A DNA stretch of 64,000 nt, from positions 2,523,451 through 2,587,450 of the forward strand of contig NZ_CP100355.1 of the NCBI RefSeq assembly GCF_024204665.1, written 5' to 3'. The DNA is from Natronosalvus rutilus (GTDB lineage: Archaea > Halobacteriota > Halobacteria > Halobacteriales > Natrialbaceae). Shown piece after piece: positions 15,767 to 46,017 of this stretch (position 1 is the stretch's first letter; the number at the start of each line of letters is the position of its first letter). The notes under the pieces are model-generated. The model did no database searches. It had not been told where the DNA came from and worked only from the letters and a program-made list of their open reading frames with translations. The translations under genes were made by a program, and so were the position numbers.

Positions 15767-16336
15767 CTACGCGTCCTCGTCGTTCGTCCGGTCGTCGTTC
15801 GCCTTGTCGACCGACTCCTCGATCAACTCCTCGACCTGGTCCTCGCGCGGTCGCCGGTCGACACGCTCTTCGACCGACTCGACCTGGGCCTGCACCTCGC
15901 TCACCTGCTTGCCGACGGATTCCTCGACGGCCGCCCCGACGCTCTTTTCGACCTGCTGGCCGACCTGCGCCTCGACGGTCTGCTCGACCGTCCGTTCGAC
16001 CTGCGGAGTGACCCGTTTCTCGACGGTCTCCTCGAGCGACTCTTCGACTTGCTGGCCGACCTGCTGACCGACCGTCTGTTCGACTGTCTCGCCCACCGTC
16101 TGTTCGACTGTCTCGCCCACCGTCTGTTCGACCGTCTCCTCGACGACCTGGGTCATCCACTCGGGATCGAACCGGGCCATCTTCCAGACGACGTGGATGA
16201 CGTAGGCCACGAAGACCCCGATCCCGAACGCAATTCCGATTCGCGAGTTCTCGAGCGTCGCGATGAGGGCGATCGCCAGGAAGATCAACACGCCGTAGGC
16301 GATGTCCACCGCGGCGTCGATTTGCGTCGGTCGCAT
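15767..16336 (-). CDS. Membrane-anchored protein built of coiled-coil VEQTVGE repeats
   Basis: A 189-residue protein with two N-terminal transmembrane helices (about residues 10-27 and 33-50) and a long cytoplasmic or periplasm-side tail of near-perfect heptad-like repeats (EQTVGETVEQTVG, then QQVGQQVEESLEETVEK and similar). Repetition is visible at DNA level: 24-bp units at about 16076-16130 repeat almost exactly. The tail would form an extended parallel coiled coil. It has no catalytic motif and may be a scaffold or spacer. Start taken at the ATG; a GTG two codons earlier is possible. The last 20 residues are acidic and disordered. Confidence 0.75.
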   Translation of the reverse strand: MRPTQIDAAVDIAYGVLIFLAIALIATLENSRIGIAFGIGVFVAYVIHVVWKMARFDPEWMTQVVEETVEQTVGETVEQTVGETVEQTVGQQVGQQVEESLEETVEKRVTPQVERTVEQTVEAQVGQQVEKSVGAAVEESVGKQVSEVQAQVESVEERVDRRPREDQVEELIEESVDKANDDRTNDEDA

Positions 16337-16686
16337 CGTCACCGACCCTCCTCGACTCGAGCATTGGTCGTCGATGCGATGGGGGTAATCGGACGCGAGG
16401 CGACTCGCCCGGCGAGTCCGCGCTGCGGAGCGCGGCGACGAACACGGCGATTCATGTGCTCGAGACGAACGTCACGAACGGAGGAAACGTTTTGGGTATC
16501 CGTCGGGAGCAGGTCGTTGGAGCGGTCGACGTCGGTCGAAAGCGGCAGGCGAGGCACGGGCATCGAATTATTGGTATAGATTATATAGTATTAAGGCGAG
16601 TCGAATCACCCCGATCTGTCGTTCACCGCCTCCGTGGCGTCGGGCGAGCGGACGATTTTTGCCCCCTGCCCGCCCACCTCGAGTGA
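16337..16686. other. 350-base divergent intergenic region
   Basis: Separates the coiled-coil membrane protein from the DUF790 gene. No convincing gene is present. Its only notable part is an AT-rich block at about 16566-16596 (tagattatatagtattaagg) that looks like a TATA region firing toward the DUF790 gene, about 90-120 bases before its start. Confidence 0.5.
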
Positions 16687-35931: not shown

Positions 35932-36132
35932 GGGTTGGGGCAGATTTGAACCGAAGGAAGACGTTCTTGCTCGCTCACTCCGTTCGCTGTGCGAGCTGCG
36001 ACTTTCAGGGTTCAAATCTACCCGTGACAACTTTTCAGCGACAAGCGACTCGCTACGCTCACGACTTCGTCGTTCGCATTTCCGTGGCGCGTAGCGCCAC
36101 GCTACGCTCGTCGCGTTGTGTCGCTGAAAAGT
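35932..36132. repeat. Nested inverted repeats and tRNA-end copy beside tRNA-Val
   Basis: Bases 35932-35951 repeat exactly the first 20 bases of the adjacent tRNA gene as read on the plus strand (its 3' end, 36133-36152). From 35938-35952 a 15-bp arm pairs (14 of 15) with 36009-36023, enclosing a GCTCGC/GCGAGC stem (35969-35974 with 35991-35996). A second perfect 14-bp inverted repeat (36030-36043 with 36119-36132) ends against the tRNA 3' end. No integrase gene is near. This may be a remnant of a small inserted element. Confidence 0.7.
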
Positions 36133-36206
36133 GGGTTGGGGCAGATTTGAACTGCCGGCCTCCTCCATGTCAAGGAGGTGTCATAACCAGACTAGACCAC
36201 CAACCC
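36133..36206 (-). tRNA. tRNA-Val (anticodon GAC)
   Basis: On the minus strand the 74-base sequence folds as a normal cloverleaf: acceptor GGGTTGG pairs with CCAACCC, the T-arm contains TTCAAATC, and the anticodon stem CCTCC/GGAGG encloses a loop TTGACAT with anticodon GAC. No intron, and CCA is not encoded. The gene's 3' end is duplicated 201 bases upstream on the plus strand. It is divergent from trpD. Confidence 0.95.
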
Positions 36207-45406: not shown

Positions 45407-45934
45407 ATGCCCACCAAACCGACGATTCTCGGCGTCGACGACGAGCGCGACCTGGTCGACCTCTACGCGAGCTGGATGCGCGACAGCTACGCCGTTCGCA
45501 CCGCCTACACGGGTCGCGGCGCACTCGAGCAGTTGAGCGACGAGGTCGACGTCGTGCTGCTCGATCGACAGATGCCCGATCTCACCGGCGACGAGGTCCT
45601 GGACGAACTCCGCCGTCGAGGCCACGACTGCTGGGTCATCATGGTCACCGCCGTCGACCCCGGACTCGACATCATCGATCTCGACGTCGACGACTACGTG
45701 ACGAAGCCGGTCTCGCGAACGACGTTGACGCGCCTGATCGAAACCCTCCGCGCGAAGTCGCGATACGGTCAGCACGGTCGCCGCGAAGTGGCGGCCCTCT
45801 CGAACAAGAAGGAAGCGATCGACGGTTCCCTCTCGATCGATGACCTGGAAGGAACCGAGCGATACCGACAACTCGAGGCGGATCTGCAGGAACTCGGTAA
45901 CTCGATGGGAGACGGGTTTGCCGAAGGGGAATAG
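45407..45934 (+). CDS. HalX-domain response regulator
   Basis: A 175-residue two-component receiver protein. The N-terminal receiver domain has VDDERDLVDLYASWM, the phospho-acceptor Asp in VVLLDRQMPDLTGDEVLDEL, and the conserved Thr/Lys (VTAV and DDYVTKPV). The C-terminal HalX domain (about residues 115-175, coiled-coil-like RLIETLRAKSRY and RYRQLEADLQELGNSM) is a haloarchaea-specific output. Cognate kinase unknown; one candidate is the sensor kinase gene 4 kb further. The gene's 3' end is the first unit of a 26-bp array. Confidence 0.92.
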   Translation: MPTKPTILGVDDERDLVDLYASWMRDSYAVRTAYTGRGALEQLSDEVDVVLLDRQMPDLTGDEVLDELRRRGHDCWVIMVTAVDPGLDIIDLDVDDYVTKPVSRTTLTRLIETLRAKSRYGQHGRREVAALSNKKEAIDGSLSIDDLEGTERYRQLEADLQELGNSMGDGFAEGE

Positions 45935-46017
45935 CGCAGGGGTTCGCCGAAGTCGAGTAGCGCAAGGATCTGCCAGGGACGAGTAGCGCAAGGATCTGCC
46001 GAAGGCGAGTAGCGCGA
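45914..46017 (+). repeat. 26-bp degenerate tandem array starting at a stop codon
   Basis: Four units. The TAG stop of the HalX gene (45932-45934) recurs at 45958-45960, 45984-45986 and 46010-46012, each exactly 26 bases apart, in a conserved core GAGTAGCGCAAGGATCTGCC (first unit diverged). It fills the spacer up to a hairpin. Confidence 0.8.

Follow-up and report, generated by a model that had tools for sequence, protein, structure and literature searches.

The tRNA-Val(GAC) gene of Natronosalvus rutilus is followed by a second copy of its own last 20 bases, with inverted repeats lying between the two copies. What is this arrangement, and how did it come to lie behind the tRNA gene? The locus was analysed within a window of 64,000 nt (GCF_024204665.1, NZ_CP100355.1, positions 2,523,451-2,587,450), whose coordinates are used below, and the region finds its best matches in the same genus and family, within the class Halobacteria. 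An original prediction, made from the sequence alone, had read the locus as the site or remnant of a very small tRNA-targeting element.

Anatomy of the unit behind tRNA-Val(GAC)

We refer to the tRNA 3' end as T3, to the inverted T3 as anti-T and to the two hairpins as A and B. In the sense of the tRNA, the order at the locus is T3, hairpin A, inverted T3, hairpin B and second T3, a plan that consists of two overlapping palindromes. The features are as follows:

36131-36206, minus strand: tRNA-Val(GAC), the host gene (ARAGORN; Rfam tRNA, 64.7 bits)
36133-36152, minus strand: proximal T3, the final 20 bases of the gene, presumed attB/attL core
36030-36132, minus strand: hairpin A, which begins where the tRNA ends; its perfect outer stem of 14 bp encloses smaller inverted repeats
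36030-36043 with 36119-36132: outer stem of hairpin A, abutting the tRNA and overlapping the called tRNA end by 2 bases
36009-36023, minus strand: anti-T, GGGTAGATTTGAACC in tRNA sense, comprising inverted T-loop, T-stem and acceptor start
35953-36008, minus strand: hairpin B, abutting the distal T-loop (from sequence and fold)
35932-35951, minus strand: distal T3, repeating the 20-bp tRNA 3' end without a mismatch; presumed attR core
35932-36132, minus strand: whole unit (A, anti-T, B and distal T3), 201 bp, gene-free

The structural elements named in the original prediction were all confirmed. The 20-mer at 36133-36152 recurs exactly at 35932-35951, the inverted repeat abutting the tRNA is a perfect 14-bp pair, and the inverted T-arm-like sequence at 36009-36023 is complementary to 35938-35952 at 14 of 15 bases. 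The 201-bp unit contains no SNJ2-family tyrosine integrase gene or other integrase, as the original prediction had stated, and no other convincing gene. The two copies of the 20-mer are spaced 201 bp apart, with no third site on the plus strand of the window.

A chance repeat is ruled out by the stability of the fold (z = -4.5 for a 207-nt stretch, with equal stability in 0 of 200 shuffles) and by the rarity of such repeats in the window, where exact direct repeats of at least 19 bp occur at only three places among 637 overlapping 300-bp windows. Both places other than the tRNA-Val unit are short-period tandem repeats. A known Rfam RNA is also ruled out, the tRNA itself being the sole Rfam match. 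Among the repeats of the window, a 24-bp tandem repeat at 16071-16132 lies within an ORF (15767-16342, minus strand) whose product has a membrane-like N-terminus followed by repetitive VGETVEQT sequence, and a 21-bp direct repeat with a period of 26 bp (45954-46000) lies just after a response-regulator-like ORF (45407-45934).

Spread over tRNA genes, genomes and the class

The original prediction had proposed a search for further copies beside tRNAs of the same genome, and these are present behind many of them. We compared four genomes, namely the window genome (44 tRNAs), its congeners G006 (43 tRNAs) and G007 (42 tRNAs, one weak hit having been dropped), and G063 from a distant family (42 tRNAs). 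A copy of the tRNA's own 19-nt 3' end was found downstream within 650 nt at 71 of 171 tRNAs, against 1 of 171 in the upstream control and 9 of 4120 in a control with the 3' ends of other tRNAs. Units are stacked in tandem: at least two downstream copies were found at 14 of the 71 tRNAs, with a maximum of six. T3 copies decay with their rank from the tRNA, mean mismatches rising from 1.11 to 4.0, with few copies at high rank. A search for small gene-bearing cassettes found no further T3 copy (at most 2 of 19 mismatches) beyond 650 nt at the 171 loci, more than 1300 nt of downstream sequence being available in only 74 of them. The list of units holds 98 copy calls, some of them overlapping or too short to be real units, and about 40 of these 98 distal T3 copies are exact; the 69 with an anti-T were used for the analysis of the inverted copy.

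Both T3-derived sequences are tailored to the host tRNA, a feature that the original prediction had missed. The ten bases beside the inverted T-loop resemble the host tRNA's 3' end in inverted form: the match score is 3.65 (n = 69), compared to 2.43 (sd 0.14) with shuffled tRNAs and a maximum of 2.84 over 1000 shuffles. The tailoring persists when the two bases nearest the T-loop are left out (2.65 versus 1.80, sd 0.12). Hairpin A has a stem of at least 6 bp that begins at most 8 nt from the end of the T3 19-mer in 56 of the 69 units, and it most often stops 11-19 nt ahead of the T-loop part of the inverted T3. The anti-T lies at 36-84 nt in most units. It forms a stem of at least 6 bp with the T3 copy in 67 of 69 units, and the unpaired bases of the copy peak at positions 10-14, a figure given without a null comparison. 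The hairpin modules themselves are unrelated between many units.

A pattern scan for a hairpin flanked by T-loop sequences gave matches in 172 of 194 Halobacteria genomes, against 0 of 194 for the reversed pattern. The original prediction was largely right but far too local, as the family is class-wide. A tRNA lies near the hairpin in 28 of 30 class-wide loci retrieved, the two loci with no detected nearby tRNA being L108 and L111. In the window genome itself, a perfect T-loop-flanked hairpin (L032, G000:C1:2834813-2834856) adjoins no matching tRNA, and its flanks match none of the own-genome tRNA ends compared. Beyond Halobacteria, isolated matches at about the control level were all that a phylum sample of 146 genomes yielded. 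The same scan of viral contigs gave at least 120 stretches, with no haloarchaeal-looking unit among the GC-filtered matches listed. An ordinary transcription terminator is unlikely given this distribution, since the majority of tRNAs have no unit.

One hairpin-B body is dispersed over many tRNAs. A stricter pattern for this type gave 84 stretches over the genomes of 84,980 species, and the 80 of these 84 that were listed were analysed; nearly all come from what we take to be haloarchaea, one being labelled only 'Euryarchaeota archaeon'. These 80 loci hold 87 copies, of which 79 lie on the same strand and less than 1 kb downstream of a tRNA (random-position control for a tRNA less than 1 kb upstream, 199 of 3200); five of the other eight are within 400 bp of the edge of the locus. 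The 79 tRNA-linked copies cover 24 tRNA types by anticodon. In 60 of the 79, the 19 nt after the B body are exactly the 3' end of the adjoining tRNA; 17 others have 1-3 mismatches and the remaining two have 6-7. On average the mismatch to the own tRNA is 0.54, versus 4.84 when tRNAs are shuffled. Within the four-genome set, B bodies at least 88% identical occur at tRNAs with unlike ends in 32 pairs, 13 of them within one genome. All B modules inspected by eye, without a statistic, have a single orientation, with no inverted B, and the tested B module had no match in plasmid or phage records.

Units are also exactly present or absent at the same tRNA between congeners. By the criterion set, 18 tRNA loci are polymorphic, and at three of them the flank beyond the distal copy in one species is joined directly to the tRNA of another. 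These are tRNA-Ile(gat) (G006 and G007 versus the window genome), tRNA-Ser(gga) (G006 versus the window genome) and tRNA-Gly(gcc) (G007 versus G006). At the remaining loci, the flanks are diverged or partly alignable, or the 'missing' copy is merely degenerate. The empty sites that the original prediction had proposed to look for in relatives exist, but at tRNAs other than tRNA-Val(gac).

Of 30 tRNA-Val(gac) loci retrieved from relatives by similarity to the window region, 29 were aligned. A downstream T3 copy (at most 4 of 19 mismatches, within 650 nt) is present at 20 of these 29 loci in the family and an inverted T-loop at 23, and seven of the 20 copy-bearing loci have two copies. The hairpin modules vary between species. 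Hairpin A of the window is 94% identical to that of G006 and 45% to that of G007, whereas hairpin B is 97% identical to that of G007 and 58% to that of G006, although the flanks of the unit are 84-95% identical in all pairs of the three genomes. As the identities of A and B are opposite despite alike flanks, the two modules have been swapped independently at the window locus. The original prediction had regarded conservation of the arrangement at this tRNA across distant species, without signs of a mobile element, as evidence against an element. The site is indeed conserved in the family, but the signs of a mobile element are present: the differing modules, tandem units and swaps mean that its conservation does not refute this reading.

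Integrase islands at the same tRNA ends

The tRNA ends that carry units are shared with integrase islands. The window genome has two, both with a mini-unit at their far side:

G000:C1:838000-848500 (L092): island of 5.6 kb at tRNA-Phe; it encodes an intact SNJ2-type integrase of 339 aa and has a mini-unit just past its far end
G000:C1:2405000-2411000 (L094): island of 1.9 kb at tRNA-Val(cac); its integrase frame is shortened, and a mini-unit lies beyond the island

The 339-aa integrase of the tRNA-Phe island, used as the reference, is 45.7% identical to the SNJ2 integrase, and relatives of it occur in 120 of 146 genomes of the order. A distant repeat of the tRNA 3' end was found in 16 of 18 further integrase-adjacent regions; together with the two islands of the window genome, these 16 make up a set of 18 islands whose T3 copies are 1.9-19 kb apart. 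Nine of the 18, at tRNA-Phe and tRNA-Arg, have an inverted T-loop at +74/75 with no more than one of its 8 bases mismatched, whereas control windows mostly have 2-3 mismatches. This inverted T-loop, shared between islands and units, had also escaped the original prediction. Some islands lack the anti-T or the core-adjoining hairpin, and the folds of a number of islands, read without a null, show a hairpin that stops a few bases short of the distal T-loop. At the end sites of two islands from other genomes (L281 and L282), hairpins appear to be inserted such that they separate the T-loop from the 5' half of the T-stem of a tRNA remnant. The number of units is weakly correlated with that of integrases (rho 0.25, p 0.016, n = 89, uncorrected for kinship), and the five integrase-free genomes have 0-1 units.

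SNJ2-type elements (betapleolipoviruses, pHK2 and genomic islands) resemble the units in that they target tRNA 3' ends, are bounded by direct repeats of that end and, in the nine islands above, have an inverted T-loop fixed in the tRNA-side arm. The window unit is likewise bounded by a 20-bp exact repeat of the tRNA end, but has no integrase. Its inverted motif at 36009-36023 is spaced differently from the +74/75 inverted T-loop of the islands, a feature that is not an established criterion for these elements. The units further differ in being gene-free and mostly 90-200 bp long, and in a repeat that extends into the T-loop, whereas in the SNJ2-group haloviruses examined att is only the last 13-15 tRNA bases, without T-loop. 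Judged by sequence, the shared T3 sites, anti-T and hairpins of the islands make the unit look like the two arms of an SNJ2-type integrase element fused together, with its genes gone.

CIMEs (cis-mobilizable elements) have their att sites in common with an integrative element and are mobilised in trans or by accretion; they carry genes and are kilobases long. Like a CIME, the window unit is att-flanked and integrase-free. Units are also stacked with integrase-bearing elements in the window genome, at tRNA-Phe and tRNA-Val(cac) though not at tRNA-Val(GAC). They differ from CIMEs in consisting of arms and hairpins only and in occupying many tRNAs per genome.

Proposed origin and movement of the units

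In our assessment, the units are probably non-autonomous, att-only integrative cassettes that are moved in trans by SNJ2-type integrases. Such cassettes would form a gene-free family, class-wide in haloarchaea and of roughly 90-200 bp each, made up of attachment-site arms only: a T3 crossover core, with A and the inverted T-loop on one side and B on the other. They would behave like deletion derivatives of, or partners to, SNJ2-type tyrosine-integrase islands. A small circle carrying one T3 would recombine, by means of an enzyme provided in trans, with the T3 at the end of a tRNA gene, and the insertion would keep the tRNA intact and put a second T3 downstream, which would make tandem stacking and precise excision possible. 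Since acceptor ends would be exchanged by a crossover within the shared T-loop, movement between different tRNAs would need another step: a body could be transferred between unlike tRNAs by homologous exchange among units or by an enzyme that duplicates its target. The very small tRNA-targeting element of the original prediction is still the best reading, for which we infer a tyrosine integrase as the mover, a circle, present-day activity and body transfer between tRNAs with different acceptor ends.

This reading is favoured by the almost exclusively downstream copies of the tRNA's own end, the spread of the pattern with no reversed matches, the B type, tRNA-linked in 79 of 87 copies and mostly with matching ends, and the alike bodies at unlike tRNAs. 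The presence and absence of units at three tRNAs, the tailored anti-T, the decay with rank, the A and B swaps and the 18 islands, which have an SNJ2-like reference integrase and in nine cases the inverted T-loop, also argue for it. Against it stand the weak correlation between integrases and units, the short att of the viruses, the island anti-T at +74/75 versus 36-84 nt in most units, the islands that lack the anti-T or a core-adjoining hairpin, the predicted swap of acceptor ends, the clean empty sites at only 3 of 18 polymorphic loci, the independent swapping of A and B, which is unexpected from integration of a whole circle, and the lack of matches to the tested B module in plasmid and phage records.

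The decay of T3 copies and the independent module swaps would also fit old attachment scars of decayed integrative elements, spread by homologous recombination, gene conversion and slippage between the 20-bp repeats with no active system. T3 repeats permit precise loss without an enzyme, and no recombinase is tied to the units. We nevertheless consider such scars an unlikely explanation, given that about 40 of 98 distal copies are exact, that the same body occurs at 24 tRNA types, each time with the end of that tRNA, and that units are tandem and polymorphic among congeners.

Integron arrays are tandem cassettes that carry genes and attC sites, which fold with bulged bases on one strand, and depend on the IntI integrase. 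The units resemble them in having tandem cassettes at one anchor, and in an imperfect palindrome whose core boxes are inverted (TTTGAAC ... GTTCAAA) and whose tip varies; they differ in having gene-free cassettes and a tRNA gene as anchor. In a somewhat more doubtful proposal than scars, tRNA genes of the class Halobacteria would anchor an integron-like system of gene-less cassettes, in which inverted T3, B and T3 would fold as a single strand that recreates the double-stranded tRNA 3' end, and a tyrosine recombinase would join this folded site to the tRNA gene acting as attI. The tailored inverted T3 would then be a requirement of recombination itself.

Less probable again is a hypothetical transposase or casposase-like enzyme that would make staggered cuts in tRNA ends and place a constant body there, duplicating about 20 bp of target. 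The constant body with flanks that always match the target tRNA would be accounted for, and the problem of swapped acceptor ends would disappear. However, target duplication alone leaves the tailored internal inverted T3 unexplained, and the same T3 repeat is found in integrase islands. Least probable of these explanations is that the unit acts as RNA, a structured 3' trailer in which folding or processing of the tRNA would face competition from the inverted and distal T3: the stable folds, the pairing of anti-T with its own tRNA end and the nearly constant downstream position would suit such a role, but units are present at only 71 of 171 tRNAs, the carrier tRNAs differ between congeners, empty sites are tolerated and many hairpin modules are unrelated.

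If the units are att-only integrative cassettes, a large share of haloarchaeal tRNA genes (the 71 of 171 in four genomes) carries minimal integrative elements that annotation misses, and the tRNA flanks in Halobacteria are a record of integration. Direct and inverted copies that both fit the host tRNA are an unusual puzzle for any known insertion mechanism. No description of these units was found in the literature screened by title and abstract start, mainly papers outside subscription journals; in this sense the family is new and has apparently been overlooked. PMC8371274 gives the att site of IntSNJ2 as 14 nt and raises the sufficiency of that length as a question; the units offer many natural examples bearing on att requirements beyond 14 bp. 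PMC3119063 describes short mobile repeats of Haloquadratum walsbyi, MITEs and PATEs among them, and presents some PATEs as fused ends of larger elements. Like the units, these repeats are short, gene-free and in some cases palindromic, but they are transposase-related or have terminal inverted repeats, and the passages on them describe no link to tRNA ends with a copied 3' end. In place of the DDE terminal inverted repeats and short target duplication that define MITEs, the unit has outer repeats derived from a tRNA and a single kind of target.
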